Under the pieces are notes generated by a model. The model was not told the origin of the DNA and ran no database searches. It saw only the letters and a program-made list of their open reading frames with translations. Below are positions 2,223-30,332 of a stretch of DNA of 34,376 bases, in pieces. The stretch is from positions 1 through 34,376 of the IMG/VR virus record IMGVR_UViG_3300036715_002002; one strand, 5' to 3'. This DNA comes from a virus. The stretch's first letter is position 1. Each line of letters opens with the position of its first letter. The translations under genes were made by a program, and so were the position numbers.

Positions 2223-3746
2223 ATGGCTTTTAATCCCGATGAATATATTAAGAAAAATATTAAAAATTTTGATCCTGATGAATATATTAAAAATAATAGT
2301 GTCAAAGAAGAGCAAGGTATTTTTAGTAAAGCGCTAAGTGAAGTAGCAAATAGACCTCAAGAGTCGCTTAAAGAAGCGCAAACGCCTGGTTATGGGCAAG
2401 GTTTAGTTAAAGCGAGTATGGAAGCTTTACCAATGGCAGGTTCTATTGCCGGTGCCGGTTTAGGTTTAGCTTCACCTATTCCAGGTGGCGCAATAGCAGG
2501 TGCCGGTTTAGGAAGTGCCCTTGGTGAGTCAGCAAGACAAATTGGTAATAAGTATTTACTAGATGAAAAGCCCGAAGGAGTTTCAGAAATTGCAAAACAA
2601 GGGTTACTTGGCGCAGGCGCAGAAATGGGCGGTCAAGCTGTAGGTAAAGCAGTTAATAAAGGTATCGAGTCAATTACTCCTGCCTTACAAAAAGGTGGTG
2701 AGTGGTTAACTGGTATTCCAAAGAAAGCAATTGAGACTTATCAAAAGTATAGACCAGAAGTTGAGGAGTTATTTAAAAAGCATGAAGGTAACTTTGCAAC
2801 AATGGCCGATGAAGCACGTGCTAATACAAACAATGCTTTGTTTGCAAAAAAAGCGGAGCTTAATAAAATTATTGATTCATCATTAAAGAATTCGGATGCA
2901 ATGGTTAATGTTATTCCAATTCAAAGAGCTTTAATTGATGCTCAAACACATTTAGATCCGCTTGTACCAACTGATAAAAAACAAATTGATCAAATTAATG
3001 ATTTATTAACTCAAATTAAAAATGGAACCCAGAACGGAAAAGAAATGCCTGTTCAGAGAGCTAATCGTTTTAAGGCATCATTTCAAGAACTAGCTAGTCA
3101 ATCTTATGCAAAACCAGGTGAGATATATAATTTAGGTAGTGATGCGGCAAGAGCGGCAAAGAAAGCGGCAAGTGAAATTAGAACACAAATAAATCAAGCT
3201 CTGCCTGATCTTGCAGAAGCAAATAATACTCATGCAAAACTTCATGACTTAGAAGACTTGATGAATTCGAATTTAATTGCCGAAGGCAAACCAGAAGCGG
3301 CCTTACTTGCTGCAGGCAGTGGTGCAAACCAAAGAAACGCAAAGGTCTTAAAAGATTTAGGTAAAATTATTGATCATGATGCTTTAGGCGAAGCTGAGAA
3401 AATAAGTGCAGCAAGATATTTTGGCGATCCTTCATTAAGTCCAGTTGACGTGACTGGTAAAGCCTTAGAACGTACTAGCAAAGCAAAAGGTATAGGCGCG
3501 GCTATTGGTTCAGGTCTTGGCTTTCTTTCAGGCGGAGCAATCCCAGCTATGGCAGGTGGCGCAATAGGACGTGAAGCCGGTGGTTACATCGCAAGTCCAC
3601 TTTCATTAAAAGGTGGTATTATAGCAAATGACTTAATTAATCAAGGTGCCAATGTTTTAAACAGAGAATTGCCTCAAATTACTCGACCATTAACTCAAGG
3701 TGGCGCTAGAATTGGGCGTGGGCTTTTAAATAAAGGTGTAAAGTAA
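2223..3746 (+). CDS. Large internal virion protein with glycine-zipper segment
   Basis: A 507-residue protein. The N-terminus carries two copies of a short motif, FNPDEYI near residue 3 and FDPDEYI near residue 16; short Asp-rich DEYI-type repeats of this kind are familiar from phage inner-core proteins. Residues about 60-105 form a Gly/Ala-rich hydrophobic glycine-zipper stretch that could insert in membranes. A long charged helical region follows (about 170-390), then a second Gly/Ala-rich hydrophobic stretch (about 425-455). The next gene repeats the first Gly-rich module. This fits a protein that forms a channel across the host envelope during DNA ejection, which is inference from composition and order. 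Confidence 0.65.
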   Translation: MAFNPDEYIKKNIKNFDPDEYIKNNSVKEEQGIFSKALSEVANRPQESLKEAQTPGYGQGLVKASMEALPMAGSIAGAGLGLASPIPGGAIAGAGLGSALGESARQIGNKYLLDEKPEGVSEIAKQGLLGAGAEMGGQAVGKAVNKGIESITPALQKGGEWLTGIPKKAIETYQKYRPEVEELFKKHEGNFATMADEARANTNNALFAKKAELNKIIDSSLKNSDAMVNVIPIQRALIDAQTHLDPLVPTDKKQIDQINDLLTQIKNGTQNGKEMPVQRANRFKASFQELASQSYAKPGEIYNLGSDAARAAKKAASEIRTQINQALPDLAEANNTHAKLHDLEDLMNSNLIAEGKPEAALLAAGSGANQRNAKVLKDLGKIIDHDALGEAEKISAARYFGDPSLSPVDVTGKALERTSKAKGIGAAIGSGLGFLSGGAIPAMAGGAIGREAGGYIASPLSLKGGIIANDLINQGANVLNRELPQITRPLTQGGARIGRGLLNKGVK

Positions 3747-5116
3747 TGGCAAATGATCAAATTAATCAGCTTAACAATTTGTTACCACCTGATTTATTTA
3801 ACGAGTGGTTATCAAGTCGTAGTAAACAACAAGATCAATTAACAGGCGGTAGAGATAAGCTTGGGATAATACCTCAACCCTTAAGTGATGAACAGAAGTC
3901 AGGACAAGGTTTGATTAAATCAGGTCTTGAATCATTACCGCAATTAGGAAGTGTTGCCGGTGGCGCTCTTGGTATGGGTTTAGGCGGTGCCGGTGCAATA
4001 CCTGCGGCTTCAATGGGTGCGGCTGCAGGCGAAGGTCTTAAGCAATTAGGTGAACAATATTTATTTGATAAAAGCCCTGATATGTCGATGCAAGAAAGAA
4101 TACATGCTATTGCAGGTCAAGGTTTAGCCGGTGGTATGACTGAGTTACCAGGGCAAGGTTTTGGGATGCTTGGTAGCGCTATAGGGCAAGTAGAGAAGCC
4201 TGCTTGGATGAAAGTCATTCAAGGTGAGGGCAAAGCTACTCCTAAAGTAGAGGCCGATGATATTGGTATGTATCCGATTAGAGAAACAAACCCTTCTGTC
4301 CCTATTGAGCAAGCAAGTAAAGAACAGCCTTTTGATTTATTTGAAGCGCAAAAAAGTGAAAAGCAATTTAAAGATCCAATGAAGCAAGCATTTGAAAACG
4401 AAATGCAGAAAAGAAAAGAACCTGCTTCTATTACAAGAATTGGTGCAGAAAACCCAGGGATACAAGCTGAGCGTCCAGATGTGCTTAAAGAGATAGAAGC
4501 ACGATACCCTGATAAAGCAAAAGAGATAAATGAACTATCAAACGAAGCATCAAAACAAAATAAAGCTTATATTTATGATCCAAATAAAATGCCAATACCT
4601 ATTCCTAATCCAAACTTAAATACTAATATGTTAGGTGAAGCGCGTATTAATGATGCGAATTTTGATGATCCTTTAAGATGGATGGATTCAAAATATGGAG
4701 TGACTAAGTCTTGGATGGAAAAGAATGCTGACAAACCTATTACTATTAATACATCAAGTGATTTAATAGCACGTGCTGATTACGCGGCACTTATTAATCC
4801 AAAGTCAAAAGTTAATTTATACGACACGACTGATAATGATCACATAAATAGAATGATATTCCCTGCTAACCCATCAAGCGCAAGAATAAATAAAGCTTAT
4901 GAAAGGTTAAAAGACGCAGGTGTAAATGTAGAATTAATCAAGCCAACAAAACAAGATATTATTGATAATCTTGCCGCTCGCGGTAAAGATGTAAGTTATG
5001 TCGAGCTAGCAACGGGCACGTCTTTAGATCAACTAATAGCCGATGGCACGATTAAATTAAGAACTGATTTAAAATCAGTTAAACCTTCACCTTTTAAATT
5101 ACTTCCTAAGAAATAA
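3746..5116 (+). CDS. Internal virion protein, glycine-zipper module plus barrel-like C-terminal domain
   Basis: A 456-residue protein starting on the last base of the previous stop. Residues about 50-140 repeat the module of the preceding protein: a GQGLIKSGLESLP-type lead-in, a Gly/Ala zipper, then KQLGEQYLFDKSP. The C-terminal third (about 320-440) has a different, globular look, with alternating strands and helices and the run ITINTSSDLIARADY. This resembles part of the barrel of radical-SAM-type proteins, but the whole protein contains no cysteine, so it cannot bind a 4Fe-4S cluster. Probably an ejected protein with an added globular domain of unknown job. Confidence 0.6.
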   Translation: MANDQINQLNNLLPPDLFNEWLSSRSKQQDQLTGGRDKLGIIPQPLSDEQKSGQGLIKSGLESLPQLGSVAGGALGMGLGGAGAIPAASMGAAAGEGLKQLGEQYLFDKSPDMSMQERIHAIAGQGLAGGMTELPGQGFGMLGSAIGQVEKPAWMKVIQGEGKATPKVEADDIGMYPIRETNPSVPIEQASKEQPFDLFEAQKSEKQFKDPMKQAFENEMQKRKEPASITRIGAENPGIQAERPDVLKEIEARYPDKAKEINELSNEASKQNKAYIYDPNKMPIPIPNPNLNTNMLGEARINDANFDDPLRWMDSKYGVTKSWMEKNADKPITINTSSDLIARADYAALINPKSKVNLYDTTDNDHINRMIFPANPSSARINKAYERLKDAGVNVELIKPTKQDIIDNLAARGKDVSYVELATGTSLDQLIADGTIKLRTDLKSVKPSPFKLLPKK

Positions 5117-13687: not shown

Positions 13688-13700
13688 GAGACCTTCTATA

Positions 13701-13716
13701 TGTGTTTTGTTTCTAT
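13701..13716 (-). promoter_or_regulatory. 16-nt leader element shared with the rightward early operon
   Basis: Read leftward, the leader of the RecT-like gene holds ATAGAAACAAAACACA, then ATAGAAGG just before the start. The same 16 bases followed by CTAGGAAGG precede the rightward gene at 14922. The element ends 13 nt upstream of the RecT start codon. It may be a transcript-leader site for a shared regulator or for translation. Confidence 0.5.
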
Positions 13717-13759
13717 GACTTTGTTTTACTATAGATTTTATGAAAGTAAATAAGTTTGT

Positions 13760-13996
13760 TTAAAAAGAACCTAACGCTTTGGTTAAATATTTACTTGGTG
13801 AATAAATAGGATAAATATAATTTTTACCTCGTTCCATTGCTTTTAATAAGTTTTTTTCAACTTCATCTTGATTTAATGGTTTTGGCTCAGTTTGTGGATA
13901 CAATTCTTTTAATATTTCTTTGTGAATGTCAAAAAGCTTAGATTCTAGAAGTTTAAATTCTTCTATTAATTTAGATATTTTTTCTTCTTTAGTCAT
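13760..13996 (-). CDS. Small coiled-coil protein, first gene of the leftward block
   Basis: A 78-residue protein, acidic/basic and helical in its first 35 residues, with a Pro-containing middle and a Tyr/Pro-rich end (YIYPIYSPSKYL). A strong AAGGAGC ribosome site lies just upstream of the ATG. Because it is the promoter-proximal gene it is probably expressed early. No family is recognised. Confidence 0.55.
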   Translation of the reverse strand: MTKEEKISKLIEEFKLLESKLFDIHKEILKELYPQTEPKPLNQDEVEKNLLKAMERGKNYIYPIYSPSKYLTKALGSF

Positions 13997-14014
13997 TTAA
14001 TGCTCCTTAAAATA

Positions 14015-14023
14015 ATTTTAACA
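14015..14023 (-). promoter_or_regulatory. Candidate leftward extended -10 promoter
   Basis: Read leftward, TGTTAAAAT matches an extended -10 (TGn plus TAAAAT), with a start expected near 14008. That leaves a leader of about 12 nt containing AAGGAGC before the ATG at 13996. No convincing -35 is present, as is usual for extended -10 promoters. Confidence 0.35.
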
Positions 14024-14026
14024 TAG

Positions 14027-14650
14027 TGGTGCAATCCCCACGGTAACGGTCTGAAAACCAGACTGTCAATTCAGAGGAAACTTACGTATTCAGTAAAACA
14101 TTAGGTCCGTTCACTATGGAGTTATCTGGTAGTGAAACGCTAAAGCAGCACCAAATCTTTAGCTCGAGCTTGCCCTTTTGTCCTACTTTGTTAAAATTAT
14201 TCCGAGTCAAATGCAGATGCCGGAATAAAATAACGGTTTAGATACTTAATTCAAAAGTTGGCAATATCTTAGAGCAAGCTCCAGTAAAGCGTATTTTTGA
14301 ACTAAACATCTTACTACTGTATCCCTGCGGCTTTAGGCCTAGTCTAAGCGGCTGTCTTTGCACATCCCCATCCCCAAGCTATAGCACAACAGCGACTCGG
14401 GGCACACTAACGTCTTGTGCCCAACTGTGGCCTTGAAACGCTACCTGCCTTAAACTGAAATACGATGCCTAGTTTTAAGTCTGTTAGGCCTTGCATCGAC
14501 TAGCCGAATTGTAAAAACTTTAGGGTTTTAAAAAGAAAATAAAAAAACTAGTAGACTTGACTTAAAATATTCTTTAGTAGAGCATTTAAGAAAAGATCGT
14601 AGGTGTTTTACGGTCATTTTTAGAACCCCGAGCTTCCAACTCGGGTGTTT
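14027..14650 (+). ncRNA. Candidate large structured non-coding RNA
   Basis: No frame of useful length fits here. GC is 52% over 14341-14460, against about 22% at 14821-14880. Paired elements seen by eye: a closing stem TGGTGC (14027-14032) with GCACCA (14148-14153); hairpin 14047-14065 (7 bp, one G-U); hairpin 14110-14136 (7 bp); a closing stem GAGCTTGC (14166-14173) with GCAAGCTC (14274-14281); 14197-14228 (8 bp); GCTGT/ACAGC (14351/14389); GGGCACA/TGTGCCC (14400-14422); CGATGC/GCATCG (14463/14493). G-U pairs that would be A-C mismatches on the other strand favour + strand transcription. It lies between divergent operons. I cannot assign a known RNA class; phage GOLLD or ROOL RNAs are of similar size. 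Confidence 0.45.
14595..14622 (+). terminator. Candidate intrinsic terminator at the 3' side of the structured region
   Basis: GATCGTA (14595-14601) pairs with TACGGTC (14609-14615) through one U-G pair, with a 7-nt loop, followed by ATTTTT. A second strong hairpin, CCCGAG/CTCGGG (14627-14645), comes right after, with GAATCTTTT downstream. Both fit the end of a rightward transcript. Confidence 0.45.
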
Positions 14651-14853
14651 GAATCTTTTACAATTTTCAACCTAAAGTAAACAAGAAAATACAAAAATCA
14701 CATAATATTCCACATTTAAGCATAGTGCCAATTTGAGTATGTTAACTCATATAGCATATATCGCATTTAAGCTGGCTTCGATAGGTTACATAACTAATAG
14801 TTATGTTCAAATGTCTTATTTTAATACACTTCAGATGATTAATAAAATAACAG
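14651..14853. promoter_or_regulatory. AT-rich regulatory region with inverted and direct repeats
   Basis: This gene-free stretch contains a perfect inverted repeat ACATAAC-taata-GTTATGT (14788-14806), a weaker one (TGAGT-atgtta-ACTCA near 14735), and CATTTAAG twice (14713, 14764) with a third copy at 14583. Dyads of this size suit small dimeric repressors such as the ribbon-helix-helix protein encoded at 15369. The CATTTAAG copies could be iterons of a replication origin, but three unevenly spaced copies are weak evidence. Confidence 0.4.
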
Positions 14854-14883
14854 TTTACATTGTATGACAATATGCATTATATT
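14854..14883 (+). promoter_or_regulatory. Candidate rightward early promoter
   Basis: TTTACA (14854-14859) and TATATT (14878-14883) are spaced 18 nt apart and resemble a sigma-70 promoter. Initiation would fall near 14890, at the shared 16-nt element (14890-14905). AGGAAGGA then lies 7 nt upstream of the ATG at 14922. Confidence 0.5.
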
Positions 14884-14889
14884 GTGTAT

Positions 14890-14905
14890 ATAGAAACAAA
14901 ACACA
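14890..14905 (+). promoter_or_regulatory. 16-nt leader element, rightward copy
   Basis: ATAGAAACAAAACACA, identical to the element in the leftward RecT leader at 13701-13716. It falls at or just after the predicted transcription start and is followed by CTAGGAAGG. Confidence 0.5.
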
Positions 14906-14921
14906 CTAGGAAGGATTAAAA

Positions 14922-15134
14922 ATGAAAAATCAAGATTCAGATAATATCAAAACATTTAGAATACTAATGGATAAAGAAAATATCAGCATGGCTGATAAAA
15001 TGATTATATTCCGAGATATGGAAAAGGCATTAGAATTGAATTTATTTACTGATACTGAAATTAAAGAAACAATTCAAAAATATATCATGATTCAGATAAT
15101 ATCAAAATTAATTGAAATGAAAAAAACACCATGA
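14922..15134 (+). CDS. Small early protein, 70 residues
   Basis: A helical, charged product with Met- and Ile-rich amphipathic helices and no recognised motif. It has the best ribosome site in this block (AGGAAGGA, 7 nt spacing) and is the first gene after the candidate rightward promoter. Its stop overlaps the next start by 4 nt (ATGA). A regulator or host-takeover factor is possible. Confidence 0.55.
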   Translation: MKNQDSDNIKTFRILMDKENISMADKMIIFRDMEKALELNLFTDTEIKETIQKYIMIQIISKLIEMKKTP

Positions 15135-15463
15135 AAACTAAAAACAAAAATGAAACATTTACTTGTGCTTGTTGTGATTCAAGAAATGTAACAAAAGGCG
15201 TGTTTGTTAAATTTGATGATTCTAATGATTATAAATGTAAGATATGTATGCATTGCTCTAAATTTTTTTCTATATATAAAAAACTAACAATTAAATCTAT
15301 GCACGATATATTTGCTCAATGTGATTGTTTTATTGAGGTAATTAACAATGCTATAAAGGAAAATAACAATGAAAACAAAAGAGGCAAGGCTAAACCTAAG
15401 ACTGTTAGAATCAGACAAAATAAAACTGAAAAAGTTAGCAAAAAAAGAAAAACGGACAATTAG
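15131..15463 (+). CDS. Zinc-finger protein with basic tail
   Basis: A 110-residue protein. A four-cysteine site is formed by CACC (about residues 12-15) and CKICMHC (about 36-42), a treble-clef or ribbon type arrangement. The last 35 residues are strongly basic (Lys/Arg) and probably bind nucleic acid. The tail is read from DNA that also encodes, in a different frame, the start of a ribbon-helix-helix gene, which may explain its low complexity. Confidence 0.55.
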   Translation: MKTKNKNETFTCACCDSRNVTKGVFVKFDDSNDYKCKICMHCSKFFSIYKKLTIKSMHDIFAQCDCFIEVINNAIKENNNENKRGKAKPKTVRIRQNKTEKVSKKRKTDN

Positions 15464-15515
15464 TCAACTTTTGCAATTCTGTGTTTCTGATTTAATCAAG
15501 AAAGCGAAGCTATAA
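15369..15515 (+). CDS. Ribbon-helix-helix (Arc/CopG-like) DNA-binding protein, 48 residues
   Basis: This short frame begins inside the zinc-finger gene in another frame, 8-9 nt after an AAAGGA ribosome site. The product shows the RHH pattern: a basic N-terminal strand (EARLNLRLLESDK), helix A (KIKLKKLAKKEKRT) and helix B starting ISQLLQFCVSDLIKK. Proteins of this size bind operators as dimers. Its place next to divergent operons and dyad repeats makes it a good candidate early repressor. It ends 20 nt inside the convergent cytidylyltransferase gene. Confidence 0.6.
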   Translation: MKTKEARLNLRLLESDKIKLKKLAKKEKRTISQLLQFCVSDLIKKAKL

Positions 15516-15900
15516 TCTTACTTCTCAAATTAGAAGTGCTTACGTTATGTAAGCGCTCACAGTAATGTATTTCGATATGAGAAAGACCTTTACCGGTAAA
15601 CTCTTCACCTACATAATCAGAGCCTAAAAATCTAATATTAGGCTTAAGCAATAATAAAAGCTGATATAACTCATCTTCCGTCTCATAAGGTATGACTTCA
15701 TCTACATAGCTTAAGCCCCTAAGCCTTATATACCGTTCTGAGCTTGTCTCGATTGGCTTATTTTTTTCTGGTCTCTCAAGTTTTGGATTAACATGCAAAG
15801 CACAGATCAAATAATCACAATTTTCTCTTGCTTCTTTTAGCATCACTAAATGCCCAGCATGGCAAAGATCAAAAGCCGAAGCTACAAAGCCTATTTTCAT
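15496..15900 (-). CDS. Cytidylyltransferase-family nucleotidyltransferase (TagD-like)
   Basis: A 134-residue protein, the usual length for glycerol-3-phosphate cytidylyltransferase. FDLCHAGHL (residues 10-18) is the HxGH nucleotide-binding motif near the N-terminus, and the C-terminal VSTSNLRSKI corresponds to the second signature (normally RTxGISTS). The expected reaction is CTP plus a phosphorylated small alcohol or sugar to give a CDP-linked product. I cannot fix the substrate; ADP-heptose- or FAD-synthesising relatives share the fold. It is co-transcribed with a small upstream gene (ATGA overlap). It may work with the phage glycosyltransferase in surface modification. Confidence 0.7.
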   Translation of the reverse strand: MKIGFVASAFDLCHAGHLVMLKEARENCDYLICALHVNPKLERPEKNKPIETSSERYIRLRGLSYVDEVIPYETEDELYQLLLLLKPNIRFLGSDYVGEEFTGKGLSHIEIHYCERLHNVSTSNLRSKIIASLS

Positions 15901-16082
15901 TTTAAAAACTCCTTTTCAACTTCTAAAGTCCATTTTCTAAGCAATTCTCTTATACACTCAGGCACGTCTACATCATGAAAAGTTTTAAGCTCAGTAAGCT
16001 TCATTTTAAGCTCAGGCTCTAATAAAAAGGCATAATATGCGGTATAATTACGATATGGTTTAATCTTAAGATGAGTTTTCAA
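15897..16082 (-). CDS. Small RHH-like protein, 61 residues
   Basis: It starts with TTG: AAAGGA lies 6 nt upstream and no in-frame ATG fits better. The middle (YYAFLLEPELKMKLTELK) followed by DVPECIRELLRKWTLEVEK has the strand-helix-helix rhythm of ribbon-helix-helix proteins. Its stop overlaps the cytidylyltransferase start by 4 nt, so it may autoregulate that pair. Confidence 0.5.
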   Translation of the reverse strand: MKTHLKIKPYRNYTAYYAFLLEPELKMKLTELKTFHDVDVPECIRELLRKWTLEVEKEFLK

Positions 16083-16149
16083 AAATAATCCTTTTTTTTA
16101 TAACATTTTATATATCTTTTACATGCAATTATTTTCTACACTTTTAGTT
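16083..16149. promoter_or_regulatory. AT-rich divergent promoter region
   Basis: A short, very AT-rich spacer between the leftward RHH/cytidylyltransferase pair and the rightward terminase genes. Leftward TTGCAT with TTATAA (19 nt apart) and rightward TATATA-like hexamers are possible promoter parts. No single promoter is convincing, but the start of the late block has to lie here or inside the neighbouring genes. Confidence 0.35.
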
Positions 16150-16641
16150 ATGGCAAGAAAAAAAGCAGTAGCAAGAGCAGGACATAATTATACCCCAGAA
16201 AAAGGCCAAGAGGTCTTAGCTTTAGCAAAAGAAGGCAAGACTAATAAGCAAATTGCTGAGCGCATGGGCTTAACAACAAGAACTATTGAAAACTGGACAA
16301 CTCAAAAAGACGATCTCATCAAAGAAATTAAACTCGCAAAAGAGCCAACTGATAACACAGTTGAGGCAACACTTCTGCAAAAAGCTCTTGGTTACAAGTT
16401 TGAAACGATCAAGCTTTTCTTTGATGCAAAAACAGGCACAGTAATAGAGCACAAATATACTGAGTTTGTTCAACCAGACACTACAAGCATAATCTTTTGG
16501 TTAAAAAACAGACAACCAGAAAAATATCGCGATGTGAAACGAATCAACGTAGAAAACGATAACGATAAGCAAGCCACTCAAGCCATTTCAGATCTAGGTT
16601 CTAAGATTGTTGATGCATTAAGCAAGTGGACAAATGAGTAA
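16150..16641 (+). CDS. terS: Terminase small subunit
   Basis: A 163-residue protein. An HTH lies at about residues 20-55 (EVLALAKEGKTNKQIAERMG, then TTRTIENW), which recognises the packaging site. The middle and end match small-terminase features: ATLLQKALGYKFE, a beta hairpin, and PDTTSIIFWLKNRQPEKYRD. I prefer the ATG at 16150, followed by a basic N-terminus; an ATG at 16123 would add nine hydrophobic residues. Neither has a ribosome site. It acts with the large subunit to start DNA packaging, and its end overlaps the ATPase gene by 8 nt. Confidence 0.85.
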   Translation: MARKKAVARAGHNYTPEKGQEVLALAKEGKTNKQIAERMGLTTRTIENWTTQKDDLIKEIKLAKEPTDNTVEATLLQKALGYKFETIKLFFDAKTGTVIEHKYTEFVQPDTTSIIFWLKNRQPEKYRDVKRINVENDNDKQATQAISDLGSKIVDALSKWTNE

Positions 16642-17338
16642 TATAGTCTTACCAGGTGATATTGAAGCGATGAAAAGCGCAGCAATGAAAAGCTTATTTG
16701 TCTTTGCGTCCTGCTTTCTAGGCTATAAAGACATATCACCTTACACACATAAATCAATGATCCAAGCATTAGAGAGTAATGTGACTCGAAAGCTTATTTG
16801 CGTGCCACGTGGTAGCTTAAAGTCATCTCTTGGGTGTGTGGCTTTCCCTATTTGGCTTTTATTAATTAATCCAAACTTAAGGATCTTAATAGATAGCGAA
16901 TTGTTTACTAACTCAGCAACTTTTTTGCGTGAAATTAAAGGGCATCTCTTATCTCAAGAGATAACTAGTATCTTTGGTGAGTTTAAAACAAAGACTTGGA
17001 ATGAGGATGAGATAATAGTTAGACAAAGAACTAAGATCTTAAAAGAACCATCAATTACTGTCGGGGGAGTCGGCACAACAAGAGTTGGGCAGCATTATGA
17101 CTACATAATAGGCGATGACTACAACTCACCTAAAAACTCTAATACGCCTGATAAGTCACAAAAAGTTATCGATCATTATAAATACAATCTTTCAATTCTA
17201 GAACCCGAAGGGACTTACGTAATTATTGGCACTCGTTATAGTGAAAATGATTTAATAGGTTACATATTAAGAGAGCAATTAAAAATATCAGGCTTCCCAC
17301 AAACTAAACTTTACACAATAGAGGAAGAAAAATCATGA
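16634..17338 (+). CDS. terL: Terminase large subunit, ATPase half
   Basis: A 234-residue protein containing only the N-terminal motor domain. Walker A is VPRGSLKSS (57-65), Walker B with catalytic acidic residues is YDYIIGDD (155-162), and the coupling motif is VIIGTRY (196-202). It ends soon after this motif (EEEKS, stop), where the linker to the nuclease domain begins in ordinary enzymes of about 490 residues. The nuclease domain is encoded separately at 18464. The stop overlaps the next start (ATGA). The motifs are intact, so this should power DNA translocation with the nuclease chain as a partner. Confidence 0.85.
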   Translation: MSNIVLPGDIEAMKSAAMKSLFVFASCFLGYKDISPYTHKSMIQALESNVTRKLICVPRGSLKSSLGCVAFPIWLLLINPNLRILIDSELFTNSATFLREIKGHLLSQEITSIFGEFKTKTWNEDEIIVRQRTKILKEPSITVGGVGTTRVGQHYDYIIGDDYNSPKNSNTPDKSQKVIDHYKYNLSILEPEGTYVIIGTRYSENDLIGYILREQLKISGFPQTKLYTIEEEKS

Positions 17339-17673
17339 CTCAAGATCAAGCGGCTTTTATCGGAGCTACACAAATTATTATAAATGCACTAGGTGCATCT
17401 GTATTTCCTTACTTATTTCAAAGTGGTCCTGGCAGTATTTCTGGACAACTTAAATTAGTAACTGGAACCACTGTTTGTATTGTCCCAAATGCAAAAAGTG
17501 GAGCAAGCATTGGTGGCGCGACTGCAATTACCACAATCCAAGGTTACTATCTAGCTACAACTGAGATGTATCCTTGGTATGGGCCTGCAAGTTTTTACTT
17601 AGCAACAACAAGCGCAACGGCTGTTATCTCTGCGGTAATTAATTACACTGCAGGCGGAGCAAGTTTAGCATAA
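17335..17673 (+). CDS. Small probable structural protein inserted within terminase locus
   Basis: A 112-residue protein, rich in Ala, Gly, Thr, Ser and beta-branched residues, with a predicted beta-rich body (LKLVTGTTVCIVPNA, TTIQGYYLATTEMYPWYGPA, then TSATAVISAVINYTAGG). The composition resembles the head protein at 25079 and phage decoration or head-fibre proteins. GAGGAAG lies about 8 nt before the ATG, a stronger ribosome site than those of its neighbours. Expression level therefore may exceed that of the terminase chains, as expected of a virion component. Confidence 0.55.
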   Translation: MTQDQAAFIGATQIIINALGASVFPYLFQSGPGSISGQLKLVTGTTVCIVPNAKSGASIGGATAITTIQGYYLATTEMYPWYGPASFYLATTSATAVISAVINYTAGGASLA

Positions 17674-18464
17674 TGAATGACTCAATAATTGGTAAGCCTA
17701 AATACTTTGACTTAGATACCTATCTAAATGCTGTAGAAAGCATGGTCTGTGCTGATGAAATAAAGTTTGCACTTACTATGCTTGATAACTTACCAGGGTA
17801 TTATCGAGACAACTATCCCGAGCGTGCCGAGACTATTCGCGGGCTTATATATGAACAATGCATGACTGTTCAAGATTACATTAACGATACAAGTGAATCT
17901 ATAGAACAGTCAGAAATTCATCATAAGCAAGTTATTACTAAACAATGGAAAGAACCTCACTTCTCACCTCGTGGGGTTTTAATTATAGATTTAGTACGTG
18001 ACCTTAACAAGCAAGGCTTCACAGTAAACATCATAGAGCTTGGGCCTTATAACTATTGGCTTCCGATGGGTTTACAAGATGAGGGGTTAGATTTTATCTA
18101 TACTCCAATTTCAGTAAACCCAAATATCAAGTGCCCTATTAAGACAAAAACAAAATCAGATAAACCAATTAAAGACATATTTATATGCTTTGAAGTTATA
18201 GAACATCTTTGGAATGAAGACGAGATAGTCCATTACTTTTATAAAACTCAAATTGATCCTGATTTTATTATCATTAGCACACCAAAGTATACTTGTGGTG
18301 GTGGTTTACCAAACTGGGATACTAGAACATTAGGACATATCAGAACGTGGACACCTTCTGAGCTTACTAATTACTGTCGTAAACATTGGCCTAAACTTAA
18401 TTGGTATTTTGTTGATTCAGCAATGATGATATCAATTGGTTCAAAAGAAAAAGTGACAACCTAA
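17673..18464 (+). CDS. Class I SAM-methyltransferase-like protein inserted within terminase locus
   Basis: A 263-residue protein. A helical N-terminal part (1-95) precedes a Rossmann-like part with IELGPYNYWLP (121-131) in the SAM-binding position, CFEVIEHLW (172-180) as post-motif II, STPKYTCGGG (202-211) and LGHIRTWTP (220-228). This order matches small-molecule, lipid or protein methyltransferases rather than DNA adenine enzymes. The normal G-x-G-x-G of motif I is reduced (G-P-Y-N-Y), so activity is uncertain. It overlaps its neighbours by 1 nt on both sides. Target unknown. Confidence 0.65.
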   Translation: MNDSIIGKPKYFDLDTYLNAVESMVCADEIKFALTMLDNLPGYYRDNYPERAETIRGLIYEQCMTVQDYINDTSESIEQSEIHHKQVITKQWKEPHFSPRGVLIIDLVRDLNKQGFTVNIIELGPYNYWLPMGLQDEGLDFIYTPISVNPNIKCPIKTKTKSDKPIKDIFICFEVIEHLWNEDEIVHYFYKTQIDPDFIIISTPKYTCGGGLPNWDTRTLGHIRTWTPSELTNYCRKHWPKLNWYFVDSAMMISIGSKEKVTT

Positions 18465-19246
18465 TGCAGTGGCAAGTTGTTTATAAGAAAGCATATAATG
18501 AAGACGGATCTCTTTTTTTTCCAGAAAAGCTGACTCATGCTTTCTTAGAGCGACAAAAACGTGAACAAGGTTCTTACATATTTTCTAATCAGTACTTAAA
18601 TGAAATTATCCCTCTTGATATGCAATCATTTAAGAAAGAGTGGTTTCACTATTATGAAACAATACCAAAGATTCATCATAACTTCTGTTATATCGACCCT
18701 GCTATTTCACAAGCTGATACCGCTGACTTTACAGGTGTGACCGTAATTGCCGTAGATAGTGAAAATAGGTGGTTTGTAAGATTCGCTAAGCGATACAAGA
18801 TAACACCAACACAACTTATAAGTCTTATTTTTGAAATACAGAAAAATTTTAATTGCATGGCAATTGGTATTGAAGAAGTCGCATTTCAAAAAGCTATTAG
18901 TTATTTTCTAGCTGATGAAATGAAGCGAAGGAATATATTTTTACCGATCAAAGGCATTAAGCCACCGACTGATAAAACAAAAGAGATGAGAATACTTTCA
19001 CTAGTCCCTAGATTTGAGTGGAATAGGGTTTTCTTAAATAAAGGACTAACTGATTTAGAACTTGAGCTTATGATGTTTCCACGTGGTGCTCATGATGATT
19101 TAATCGACTCACTTGCAAGTTGTGATTTTATAGCATTCCCACCTAGCCCAGAAAAACAATGGGAAAAGCCATTAGCGCCTAATCATCCAGACTATGAAGC
19201 TTATTATTTACATAAATTAAGAAATAAAAACCAAGACGATAATTAA
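18464..19246 (+). CDS. terL: Terminase large subunit, nuclease half
   Basis: A 260-residue protein containing the RNase H-like terminase nuclease domain. YIDPAISQADTADFTG puts the first catalytic Asp at 78, IGIEEVAFQKA supplies the acidic pair at 137-138, and RGAHDDLIDSLA supplies Asp211/212 and Asp215. The linker typical of full-length enzymes (QWQVVYKKAYNEDGSLFFPE) forms its N-terminus, directly continuing where the ATPase chain at 16634 stopped. There is no Walker motif here. It has almost no ribosome site and starts on the last base of the methyltransferase stop, so it depends on translational coupling. It should cut concatemers at the start and end of packaging. Confidence 0.85.
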   Translation: MQWQVVYKKAYNEDGSLFFPEKLTHAFLERQKREQGSYIFSNQYLNEIIPLDMQSFKKEWFHYYETIPKIHHNFCYIDPAISQADTADFTGVTVIAVDSENRWFVRFAKRYKITPTQLISLIFEIQKNFNCMAIGIEEVAFQKAISYFLADEMKRRNIFLPIKGIKPPTDKTKEMRILSLVPRFEWNRVFLNKGLTDLELELMMFPRGAHDDLIDSLASCDFIAFPPSPEKQWEKPLAPNHPDYEAYYLHKLRNKNQDDN

Positions 19247-19260
19247 AAGGAGTTAATATT

Positions 19261-19632
19261 ATGGCAAAAGCACGCATTACACCACTAGATAAGTTTGGGA
19301 TCGCTGAGTCAATCGGAGAAATATACACAATGCCTGAGCTAGATGAAAGTCTAGTTAAAGTTGATGAAAAGGAAGCAACCTTTGTTGATGATCCAGAATC
19401 TTTCCGTATGGCAATCGGTGCCGCTCAAATGAATGATGAAGAGTTTATTGAAGTGGGTGAGAAATTATTTAAGTACTTACTTAAAAATTCAAAGTCTCGT
19501 TATCTTACGTATGGATCACCTGGTATTAAGATTTATTTAAAAGGCACTCGTGAAGCTTTAGAGAAAGAAGAAAAGATGAGTGGTGAGCAATACCTTGAAC
19601 ATGTTTCAAAGCAAAAACAATTAGGTTTATAA
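19261..19632 (+). CDS. Hypothetical protein between terminase and portal genes
   Basis: A 123-residue acidic protein with a mixed fold; the end is helical (REALEKEEKMSGEQYLEHVS). It starts behind AAAGGAG and its stop overlaps the next start by 1 nt. No motif identifies it. Location suggests a packaging or head-assembly accessory. Confidence 0.5.
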   Translation: MAKARITPLDKFGIAESIGEIYTMPELDESLVKVDEKEATFVDDPESFRMAIGAAQMNDEEFIEVGEKLFKYLLKNSKSRYLTYGSPGIKIYLKGTREALEKEEKMSGEQYLEHVSKQKQLGL

Positions 19633-19874
19633 TGACTGATCTTATTTTCTTTGGAGTTATAGTCTTACTTATAATGCTTAATGTAATAACAATATTGTTT
19701 TATCAAAAACAAGTTAACGCATTAGTTGACAAAGTTATGTGCAAAAACTACCCTGAATTTGTTCAGTCAAAAAATCTTGAACAAGGTGCTCACTTCCCAA
19801 ATGAAGCCACTCAAGAAATAGAACAAGTCAAAGAAGACGAGCTATTAAGAGAGTTAAATTCAATCATTATGTAA
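19632..19874 (+). CDS. Small N-terminally anchored membrane protein
   Basis: An 80-residue protein with one strong hydrophobic segment at residues 4-25 (LIFFGVIVLLIMLNVITILFY without charge), followed by an acidic, soluble tail. It lies directly before the portal gene. A membrane protein in a head module is unexpected; possible roles are membrane-linked capsid assembly, ejection or a holin. None is proven. Confidence 0.5.
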   Translation: MTDLIFFGVIVLLIMLNVITILFYQKQVNALVDKVMCKNYPEFVQSKNLEQGAHFPNEATQEIEQVKEDELLRELNSIIM

Positions 19875-19901
19875 TCAGTTTTAGCTAGGGAAGTGGCACT
19901 A

Positions 19902-22028
19902 ATGCAGTTATCTGATATAACTAAAAAACTTTTCGGATCAAAAAAAGATGCCCAAGATTTAGAGCCTATAAAAGAGATATCAGATCAGTCACCTGATGAG
20001 ATAAAGCTTGTTGAGTATATCAAAGAAAAGATAGATTCGACAAGACAAACTAACTCTCGTATCGCTATTGAAGGCGTTTACATGTGTAACGTCGCCTACC
20101 TTCTTGGGTTTGACGGAGTTTACTATGACACTGCTTACAGACAATTTAGAAATATCGATCCTAAACGAAAACTAAGTCGCAATAGATATAAAGTTAATAA
20201 GATCTTACCTACGATTCAAAATAGATTAGCAAGGCTTACGCAAAACCCACCACGATATGAAGTAAGACCTAACTCAAATTCGACAGAAGACAAAGATGCT
20301 TGTCGTTTGGGTTTAGAAGTCATTACAGATATTTTTGAAAAACAAAGATTTAATCAAAAACGTCAAGATGCTCTTATGATGGCAATGCAAGGTGGGCATG
20401 CTTATATTCAAACAGTTTGGGACCCAAATTTAGGTAAACCTATGATTGATCCTGATACCGGAGAGTTTAATGGTTATGAAGGCGATGTTAAACTTGAGGT
20501 TTTAAATTGTCTTGATGTGTTTCCCGATCCTGCAGCAAAGAATATAGACGATGCTCAATATTTAATTAAAGCAAAAACTAGAAAGCTTGAGTACTTTAGA
20601 TCAAGATATCCTGATCGAGGTAATTTAGTTAAAGAAGAGTCAACTTGGCTTTTGTCTGCGACTTATGACATGAAGACTAACTCACTAACAAGTGTTGGAA
20701 TAGTTGGTGCTCAAACTCATGATCAAATGAAGAACAGTGCTATTGAAATTGTCTATTATGAAAAGCGCAGTAAAGATCATCCTAATGGTCGCATGGTAGT
20801 TACTGCTAATGGTGTATTACTCGAAGACAAAGAATTACCAGTCGGTGAGTTTGATATTGTCAAAATAGATGATATGATTATCGGTGGTCGGTATAATAGT
20901 GAAGCAATCATCACTCATTTAAGACCTATTCAAGATCAATACAATGTGAGTCGTACTAAGATGGCTGATTGGGTGAGAAAGATGCTTGCTGGCAAGTATC
21001 TAGTGGCAAAAGGCGCAGGGCTTGGCCAAGAATCAATTAATAACGATAGTGGTGAAGTTGTTGAGTATAACGTGGTCCCAAATGCACCGCCACCTACGGC
21101 TATGACTATTCCACAGATACCGCCTTATATGTTTAAAGAAATTGAAAACTTAAACAGCGAGTTTGATTTTGTTTCTGGTATTAATGAAGTGAGTCGAGGT
21201 GAGCTCCCAAGTGCTTCTATACCTGCTAGCGGTATGGCTTTCTTACAAGAGCAAGATCAAACAAGAATTGGTGTCCAAACTTCTAGAAACGAAACTGCTT
21301 ATGCTAGAATTGGCACGCTTATCTTAAAGTATGTAGGCAAGAACTATAAAATACCACGTATGATTAAAACTGCAGGTGATGGTTTAGGTTACTGTGTTAA
21401 AGACTTTATGGGTGATCAGTTACTTGATAACCATGACGTTATAGTTATTGAAGGATCAACTGTCCCACAATCTAAAGTCTTACGTAATCAAGAAATTCTT
21501 TCTCGTTATCAAATGGGATTAATGGGCAATCCTCAAGATCCTAAAGTTATTTCTCATGTATTAAAAATGACAGAGTTTGGAGACGCTAATGAAATATGGA
21601 AGAAACAAGCATTAGATGAAGCTCAAGTTAAGCGTGTGCTTAAAGCTATTGAGACAAGTGACCAAATATTATTACGACAAAACATGAATGAGTTTGATAA
21701 TCATGCAGTTCATTTAGAAATGATGAACGAATATAGATTAGAGGATAAGTTTAATGGTTTAGATGATAAGCAAAAATCTTTGTTCTTTTGGGTTATGGAA
21801 TGGAGAATGAATGCAGCGACAAACATTCTAAACCCTGGATTACAGCAAACTCAAAACATGGCTGAACATGGTGTTAATCAAATGCAACAAGGCCAAGTTC
21901 CTATGACTGATAATCAAGGCGATATGCCATTACCGCAAAGTGAACAACAAACACCGCCTTCTCAATTACCAAATGTAAATCAAATGACTCAATCAATTCA
22001 CCAACAAAATGCAGGTCAAGGAGTTTAG
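19902..22028 (+). CDS. Portal protein, P22-like
   Basis: A 708-residue protein. I start at the ATG at 19902 because AGGGAA is 9 nt upstream; an in-frame GTG at 19893 abuts that site and is too close. The sequence has the shape of P22-type portals: a helical N-terminus with KVNKILPTIQNRLARLTQNPPRYEVRP, a wing/clip region with VLNCLDVFPDPAAKNIDDA, a long stem and helical crown region, and a Gln-rich tail. The length is close to P22 gp1 (725). Twelve copies would form the ring through which DNA enters and leaves and to which the terminase binds. Confidence 0.85.
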   Translation: MQLSDITKKLFGSKKDAQDLEPIKEISDQSPDEIKLVEYIKEKIDSTRQTNSRIAIEGVYMCNVAYLLGFDGVYYDTAYRQFRNIDPKRKLSRNRYKVNKILPTIQNRLARLTQNPPRYEVRPNSNSTEDKDACRLGLEVITDIFEKQRFNQKRQDALMMAMQGGHAYIQTVWDPNLGKPMIDPDTGEFNGYEGDVKLEVLNCLDVFPDPAAKNIDDAQYLIKAKTRKLEYFRSRYPDRGNLVKEESTWLLSATYDMKTNSLTSVGIVGAQTHDQMKNSAIEIVYYEKRSKDHPNGRMVVTANGVLLEDKELPVGEFDIVKIDDMIIGGRYNSEAIITHLRPIQDQYNVSRTKMADWVRKMLAGKYLVAKGAGLGQESINNDSGEVVEYNVVPNAPPPTAMTIPQIPPYMFKEIENLNSEFDFVSGINEVSRGELPSASIPASGMAFLQEQDQTRIGVQTSRNETAYARIGTLILKYVGKNYKIPRMIKTAGDGLGYCVKDFMGDQLLDNHDVIVIEGSTVPQSKVLRNQEILSRYQMGLMGNPQDPKVISHVLKMTEFGDANEIWKKQALDEAQVKRVLKAIETSDQILLRQNMNEFDNHAVHLEMMNEYRLEDKFNGLDDKQKSLFFWVMEWRMNAATNILNPGLQQTQNMAEHGVNQMQQGQVPMTDNQGDMPLPQSEQQTPPSQLPNVNQMTQSIHQQNAGQGV

Positions 22029-28118: not shown

Positions 28119-30332
28119 ATGGCCTTCCCTACAATTACACTCGCATTGATTGCGAAAAATGAAGAAAAGAATATCAATAGACTACTTGATTCAGTCGCTG
28201 GATGCTTTGATCAGATCGTGTTAGTTGATACTGGTTCAACTGATAAGACAAAAGAAATTGGTTTATCACGTGGGTGTGAAGTTTATGACTTCACATGGGT
28301 GAATTCTTTTTGTAAGGCTCGCAATTTTGCATTTTCAAAAGCTACTTGTGATTATATTTGTTGGTTAGATCTCGATGATTGCTTAAGTGACAAAGATGCT
28401 TTCATTCAGTGGAAAAACTATGCAATGGAGTTTGCTGATTGTTGGTTTAATACTTACAATTATGCTTTAGATAAAGAAAAGAAACCTATTATTTCATTTG
28501 TAAGAGAGAGAGTTTTTAAGCGCTCACTTGATCCAGTATGGCAATATGATTTACATGAAGGTATTATTATAAAGCCTGAATGGTCTAGAGACTATGCTGT
28601 TTCATGGTCTGTAAATCACATGAGAGATGAGCAAGATGTAATTGCTGATAAGTCACGTAATATAAAGATTCTTGATGATATCAAAGCTCGTGATGGGAAG
28701 TTACCAACAAGACTTAAGTTTTATTATGGCAAAGAGCTTTATGAAAATGGACAACCTCAAAAAGCAATATGGGCTTTTGAGGAGTTTTTAAAATGTGAAG
28801 ACATCGAGTTTCATGACAAGGTTTTAGCATATCAGTATGCGGCTTATTCAGCTTTTCAAAGTGCTCAAAATTTAAAACCAGAGTTACGAGAAGAAATCAT
28901 GTCTCTATTAACTCATGCTTTAAACTTTGCAATTGAAGGTATTAAGCTTGAACCGAGTCGTGCTGAGTTTTTTGTTACTTGTGGTGATATCTATTTATTC
29001 CAAGGTCAAATTCATAAAGCTATGGGCTTTTATGGAGCGGCAAAGGTTTGTATTAATCCAAAAGAGATGAGTGGTGCTTATGAAGGTGCAGTTTACTCTT
29101 TTATAGATTGCTATGGTAAAGTGCCAAGCCTTCAACTTGCTAAATGTTTATTCAATATTGGAAAGCTTGAGCAAGCAAAACTTGAAGCAAAAGAATGCTT
29201 TGATAAGTATCAAGATAATGAAGCAAAAGCGATGCTAGAAGAAATAACAAAAATTGAAAGCTTAACTAAGCTTGATAATAACCAAGTTCAGACTAATGAC
29301 ATTGTTATTACATGCCCACCACAGACCGCTTATCCTTTTGATGAAGAGCTTTATAAAACTAAAGGTCTTGGTGGTAGCGAGACAGCTTTAATTCAAATAG
29401 CAAGGCATTTACACACATTAACTGGTAAGCCTGTTAAAGTGTTTAACATGAGAGAAGACACTCTTATTGCTGAAAGTGGTGTAGAGTATATTTCAAACAA
29501 GCATTTAAATAAGTATATGAGTGAAAACTTACCACTTATTCATATTGCCTGGAGACATAACATAAAGCTAACAAGAGCTAAGACCTATTTGTGGTGTCAT
29601 GATCTAACTACTCAGACAGTTGAGAGTGTTCAAAACTTTGATAAGATTATTTGCTTATCTGAGTTTCATAAGAATTATGTTATGGCAAAACAGAATGTAT
29701 TACCTGAAAAGATATTCTTATCTCGTAATGGTATTGATCCAGTTAAATTTGATTTTATTAGAAAGCCAAAGAACAAGAATAAGATTGTTTGGATGAGTAG
29801 TCCTGACAGAGGGCTAGAACAATGCATTTTAATTGTTGATGAATTATTAAAAGTAAGACCAGAAGTTGAGCTTCATGTTTATTATGGTTTAGATAATCTT
29901 TATAAATACGGCTTAGGAGCTCTTGCTGATAAATTAAAAGCAATGATCGAAGAAAGATCTTGGATTAAGTATCATGGGTTTACTGAGCAATCTAAAATGT
30001 ATTATGATGTGAGTGATGCTATTATTTGGTTACACCCATGTAATTTTATTGAAACATTTTGCATCACTGGACTTGAGATGCTCGCACTAGGTGTTTTCCC
30101 TATTACAAGAAAGCTTGGAGCTCTTGCTAATACTTTAGCCGATGCTGAAAGTAAAGGCCAAGCTATTATGCTTGATCATAATGGTTCAAGTGAAGAAGGA
30201 AAAGCTGATTATGTAGATCAGTGTCGTTTAGTTTTAAATAATAGATTATGGGAAAATGTTAATCTTGATTTAGAAAAGCATGATTGGAAAACTATTGCTA
30301 AAGAGTGGATCTCTGAAATGGGCTTAGAATGA
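28119..30332 (+). CDS. Bifunctional glycosyltransferase: GT2, TPR and GT4-like domains
   Basis: A 737-residue protein. Residues 1-170 are a GT-A family 2 domain: TLALIAKNEEKNINRLLDSV at the start, VDTGSTD (36-42) and the metal-binding DLDD (84-87). Residues about 200-370 are helical TPR-like repeats. Residues about 395-730 form a GT-B domain with GLGGSETALIQIARHL (416-431), SRNGID (535-540) and WMSSPDRGLEQCI. The first part with TPRs resembles SunS-like and other phage GT2 proteins. Both domains keep their donor-site motifs, so it could add two sugars in turn. Position among tail genes suggests virion protein glycosylation, though host envelope modification is possible. Confidence 0.8.
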   Translation: MAFPTITLALIAKNEEKNINRLLDSVAGCFDQIVLVDTGSTDKTKEIGLSRGCEVYDFTWVNSFCKARNFAFSKATCDYICWLDLDDCLSDKDAFIQWKNYAMEFADCWFNTYNYALDKEKKPIISFVRERVFKRSLDPVWQYDLHEGIIIKPEWSRDYAVSWSVNHMRDEQDVIADKSRNIKILDDIKARDGKLPTRLKFYYGKELYENGQPQKAIWAFEEFLKCEDIEFHDKVLAYQYAAYSAFQSAQNLKPELREEIMSLLTHALNFAIEGIKLEPSRAEFFVTCGDIYLFQGQIHKAMGFYGAAKVCINPKEMSGAYEGAVYSFIDCYGKVPSLQLAKCLFNIGKLEQAKLEAKECFDKYQDNEAKAMLEEITKIESLTKLDNNQVQTNDIVITCPPQTAYPFDEELYKTKGLGGSETALIQIARHLHTLTGKPVKVFNMREDTLIAESGVEYISNKHLNKYMSENLPLIHIAWRHNIKLTRAKTYLWCHDLTTQTVESVQNFDKIICLSEFHKNYVMAKQNVLPEKIFLSRNGIDPVKFDFIRKPKNKNKIVWMSSPDRGLEQCILIVDELLKVRPEVELHVYYGLDNLYKYGLGALADKLKAMIEERSWIKYHGFTEQSKMYYDVSDAIIWLHPCNFIETFCITGLEMLALGVFPITRKLGALANTLADAESKGQAIMLDHNGSSEEGKADYVDQCRLVLNNRLWENVNLDLEKHDWKTIAKEWISEMGLE

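Follow-up and report, generated by a model that had tools for sequence, protein, structure and literature searches.

A gene-free stretch within an exchanged cassette of a compact phage genome, a candidate untranslated start of a leftward early transcript

In compact phage genomes such as those of L5/D29 and ICP1, stretches that lack genes have yielded very abundant RNAs of unknown function. The mycobacteriophages L5, D29 and StarStuff make an early non-coding Pleft RNA of ~500 nt, whose transcription is documented by RNA-seq (PMC5712189). In ICP1, an ORF-less stretch of ~1 kb is reported to be strongly transcribed, giving an abundant RNA of ~800 nt (PMC7567579). GOLLD and ROOL are large phage RNAs (PMC12286853). 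Here we describe a gene-free stretch in the IMG/VR virus record IMGVR_UViG_3300036715_002002, a phage contig of 34,376 bp that was analysed over its whole length (the window). It is possible, and we tentatively favor this reading, that a leftward early transcription unit opens with this non-coding DNA, which lies within a block-exchanged cassette.

The window carries genes for a terminase, a portal, a major head protein, a RecT-like protein, a RusA-like protein and an endolysin-like protein, as recognized with PHROGs and Pfam. The only close relative found is IMGVR_UViG_3300020045_015655 (L007; whole record G006, 37,790 bp), which shares 85% nucleotide identity with window positions 15117-21646, and most of the late proteins of the two are 78-99% identical. 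In L007 the window's terminal genes adjoin each other, so the record probably represents a nearly complete genome. The large terminase appears to be split over two genes (16634-19246), an arrangement found also in L007: the first (16634-17338) matches TerL profiles, the second (18464-19246) has a weak match to the RNase H-like domain of terminases, and ORFs of 112 and 263 aa lie between them. At 15496-15900 and 28119-30332 are a cytidylyltransferase/adenylyltransferase-like gene and a two-domain glycosyltransferase-like gene, for which surface-sugar functions are possible.

An earlier note had reported roughly 900 nt without a gene, and positions 13997-14921 (925 nt, no strand assigned) indeed form the only inter-ORF gap of at least 250 nt in the contig. 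Its description of the composition is also borne out. The GC peak placed at 52% in 14341-14460 measures 52.5%, a value matched by only 0.6% of 120-nt windows, and the fall to about 22% near the right edge measures 23% over 14781-14921. Over 14021-14520 the GC content is 43%, and 1.2% of 500-nt windows are equally high. The first gene leftward of the stretch is a 78-aa ORF on the - strand (13760-13996) with a Shine-Dalgarno sequence, AAGGAG, at 14003-14008; a search for relatives of this ORF found none. On the other side lies a 70-aa ORF (14922-15134) that has no counterpart in L007, and the direct repeat GATTCAGATAATATCAAAA near both of its ends suggests a small insertion.

DNA similarity to L007 ends at 13756 and restarts at 14843, with a single shared 12-mer, TAGTGCCAATTT, in between. 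This operator-like 12-mer (14723-14734) occupies the same place in L007, where the segment corresponding to 13757-14842 encodes a DnaB-like helicase and a DnaD-like initiator and includes ~300 nt of non-coding DNA. The stretch sits at the early-gene switch of the phage, and the replication genes of L007 are flanked by the same putative divergent early promoters. Since similarity breaks off where the relative has replication genes and similar flanks are kept, the window carries a swapped cassette. Judged by sequence comparison, this cassette is made up of the orphan 78-aa ORF and the non-coding stretch, in place of the replication genes of the relative. The leftward RecT operon carries in its 5'UTR the motif TAGAAACAAAACACA (13701-13715, - strand), which has related flanks in L007 and recurs as an exact inverted copy at 14891-14905 in the 5'UTR of the rightward operon, such that an inverted repeat flanks the swapped cassette. 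This repeat might aid module exchange.

The earlier note had suggested that the stretch may be an RNA such as GOLLD or ROOL, or a new class. Membership in GOLLD or ROOL was not upheld, as a cmscan of the window against 4227 Rfam families gave nothing at gathering score, and a permissive scan (E<=10) of 13690-14925 returned only four chance-level matches. However, the transcribed stretch of ICP1 is also without an Rfam match above gathering, and thus a stretch with no Rfam match can still encode an RNA. No tRNA or tmRNA was found in the window (ARAGORN for tRNA). A search for homologues of the stretch in 50,697 phage records was negative, and one among 72,556 plasmids gave a single, chance-level match; RecT relatives have no alignable copy of it, and when 14026-14042 and the shared 5'UTR were scanned for as exact patterns, L007 alone was hit. 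The alternative of a degraded protein gene fared no better. Ten stop-free frames gave PHROGs and Pfam matches with E values not better than 0.025, and a tblastn search with 237 proteins of the phage and its relatives returned self matches, shared 5'UTR DNA and chance matches (best E 0.005, one query). These results give no support to a degraded gene in the stretch. Two other candidate likenesses were rejected. Alignment to the non-coding stretches of ICP1 and phage K was not better than to shuffles, and for the hairpin at 14624-14647, whose anticodon-like loop CTTCCAA had suggested a tRNA/attP reading, ARAGORN finds no tRNA at either matching locus (a 20-mer of this hairpin occurs once in genome contigs, and its 17-mer core once in viral contigs).

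Folding was judged on both strands, by z scores and stem counts, against shuffles (dinucleotide shuffles for stems) and against windows of the genome. The helices described in the earlier note can be drawn, but a hairpin density beyond chance was not confirmed: stems of at least 6 and at least 7 bp are as numerous as in dinucleotide shuffles on both strands, and an excess appears only among stems of at least 8 bp on the + strand (34 versus 22.5 +/- 5.1). The 120-nt windows of the stretch have a mean z of -0.37 (+) and -0.02 (-), compared with -0.08 +/- 1.12 for the genome. The 650 nt from 14011 to 14660 score -2.0 (+) and -1.6 (-), within the genome's 650-nt background of -1.25 +/- 1.47, and the GC-rich core (14320-14520) folds at chance level, no better than shuffles, with z of +0.27 (+) and +0.49 (-). 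The sole part that stands out is the left ~190 nt (14005-14205), with z of -3.4 to -4.1 (+) and -1.3 to -2.3 (-), although its boundaries were picked after the helix had been seen and a z of -3.4 is reached by 2.4% of the genome's 201-nt windows. This left domain (14011-14201, + strand) is closed by a 24-nt helix, 14011-14034/14178-14201, in which 22 of 24 positions pair on the + strand. The claim that G-U pairs make sense only for + strand RNA holds for this helix, which has two of them on that strand, but fails for 14240-14256/14295-14311, where 17 of 17 positions pair on the - strand alone. Likewise, only one of two T-rich hairpins proposed for 14595-14650 is as described: the first (14595-14615) has an ATTTTT tail, whereas the second (14624-14647) has no real T run. 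With its ATTTTTA tail, the first forms a terminator-like hairpin on the + strand (14595-14621) that is within chance (0.5 +/- 0.7 sites expected).

The 78-aa ORF and its Shine-Dalgarno sequence imply that a leftward promoter is needed. The only promoter-like sites on the - strand inside 13997-14921 start at 14731 and 14888, matching the consensus at 10 and 9 of 12 positions, respectively. The better of these, TTGGCA-18-TATTAT (14731-14702), is a candidate leftward early promoter. Its -10 element is not conserved in L007, for which no - strand promoter-like site is listed. Rightward, the promoter TTTACA-18-TATATT with its 5'UTR motif (14854-14905, + strand) is conserved in L007, and the + strand near 14000 offers only poor sites. 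The better promoter evidence points leftward, contrary to the + strand RNA of the earlier note.

In L007, too, a single gap reaches 250 nt; it is the non-coding DNA mentioned above, which precedes leftward replication genes. Within it, positions 3623-3816, before the DnaD-like gene, fold with z of -2.1 (+) and -3.5 (-), none of 200 shuffles being as good on the - strand, and could possibly be a regulatory leader. By eye, this segment resembles a diverged left domain (GUGG...CCACGGU and a long-range closing helix), but alignment was not better than for shuffles. Of two single-sequence covariance models, R1 and R2, neither found the other's copy in 196,734 bases, and unfiltered scans with both gave only scattered low scores. 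Because alignment and models failed, we claim no homology between the two. A further comparison is provided by another phage, L006, whose GC equals that of the window and which shares RecT and a RusA-like protein with it. In the place corresponding to the window's stretch, before the RecT operon, L006 has ~500 nt without an ORF (4053-4553), with a fold z of -2.9 (+) and -3.6 (-) and a strong terminator, read toward RecT, at 4489-4518. This DNA has no Rfam match above gathering and does not align with the window. Direct repeats occur in L006 at 4326-4385 and 4081/4266.

Together, the - strand promoter-like sites, the well-folding - strand of the non-coding DNA before the leftward genes of L007 and the ORF-less DNA upstream of the RecT operon in L006 argue for a leftward leader. 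A promoter at ~14700-14790, with 14731-14702 as the best candidate, would fire leftward, and the - strand would be transcribed through ~690 non-coding nt and then the 78-aa gene. The transcript would cross the core of high GC and then a domain able to fold, which ends beside the Shine-Dalgarno sequence of that gene. The RNA may regulate as a leader, or it may be a stable non-coding RNA of the early phase, as is reported for the Pleft RNA of L5, D29 and StarStuff. Nevertheless, the greater stability of the left domain on the + strand, the terminator-like hairpin on that strand, a promoter recognized by consensus alone, the lack of -10 conservation in L007, the failure of L006 to align and the lack of demonstrated homology between the domains of the window and L007 all weigh against this reading.

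A free-standing structured RNA of ~600 nt on the + strand, extending from 14011 to ~14620, abundant during infection and representing a new class like GOLLD and ROOL or the ICP1 RNA, would account for the strand on which the left domain, its closing helix, the terminator-like hairpin and the excess of long stems are found. ICP1 provides a precedent, with an abundant RNA from ORF-less DNA and no tRNA (PMC7567579). We nevertheless consider such an RNA unlikely, for the whole-length fold stays within the genome background, the core folds as expected by chance, and neither an Rfam match, a good + strand promoter near 14000 nor homologues for covariation were found. An untranslated start of an early transcript is more likely than a proven new giant RNA, because there is no match to a known RNA and folding is not clearly beyond chance.

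Alternatively, the cassette could be a DNA element, such as an origin or another replication or packaging site, that replaces the DnaD/DnaB cassette of the relative. Its position where L007 has DnaD-like and DnaB-like genes would fit, as would the outcome of the PHROGs and Pfam searches, in which none of the window proteins covered was recognized as a helicase, primase or initiator. However, many early proteins of the window are without assigned function, so that an unrecognized initiator is possible, and iteron-like repeats and a DnaA box are absent from the stretch, with no clear skew turn; we regard this explanation as doubtful. Equally doubtful is the reading that the stretch is relic or imported DNA that does nothing by itself and stayed behind between two promoters when the modules were swapped. 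The lack of homologues in the records searched, the near-background folding and a composition different from the rest of the genome are what such DNA would show, but ~700 nt have been retained where every other gap of the genome is below 250 nt, and no gene remnant can be recognized. Least probable of all, and in our view very improbable, is a new large phage RNA class, transcribed from either strand, that replaces the DnaD/DnaB cassette and contributes to replication or to the early takeover of the host; such an RNA might, for instance, act as the primer at an origin that works without an initiator.

Compared with known systems, the stretch is like GOLLD and ROOL, which form homo-oligomeric RNA cages, in size range and phage setting. 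Unlike these RNAs, which match covariance models and have a family of homologues, it has neither such a match nor such a family, and its folding is not above background; the window also lacks a tRNA island by ARAGORN, although the location of GOLLD and ROOL near tRNA genes is frequent rather than obligatory. The phage resembles ICP1 in that both compact genomes have one gene-free stretch of ~1 kb, no tRNA and no Rfam match above gathering. In ICP1, however, transcription has been shown, the stretch lies beside the lysis cluster, and there is no significant alignment to the window. A comparable layout is that of Pleft of L5, D29 and StarStuff, where ~500 nt free of ORFs separate the early leftward promoter from the first early gene; here the ORF-free gap runs from the consensus match at 14731-14702 (- strand) to 13996. 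As in the window, the Pleft stretches are divergent in sequence between relatives and of unknown function. These mycobacteriophages belong to an unrelated group in which transcription has been shown; the window is likened to them by layout, and its transcription is inferred. Because the stretch occupies the replication-module slot of the otherwise closely similar L007, the two phages form a natural pair for asking what role such stretches, and the putative RNA itself, might play.
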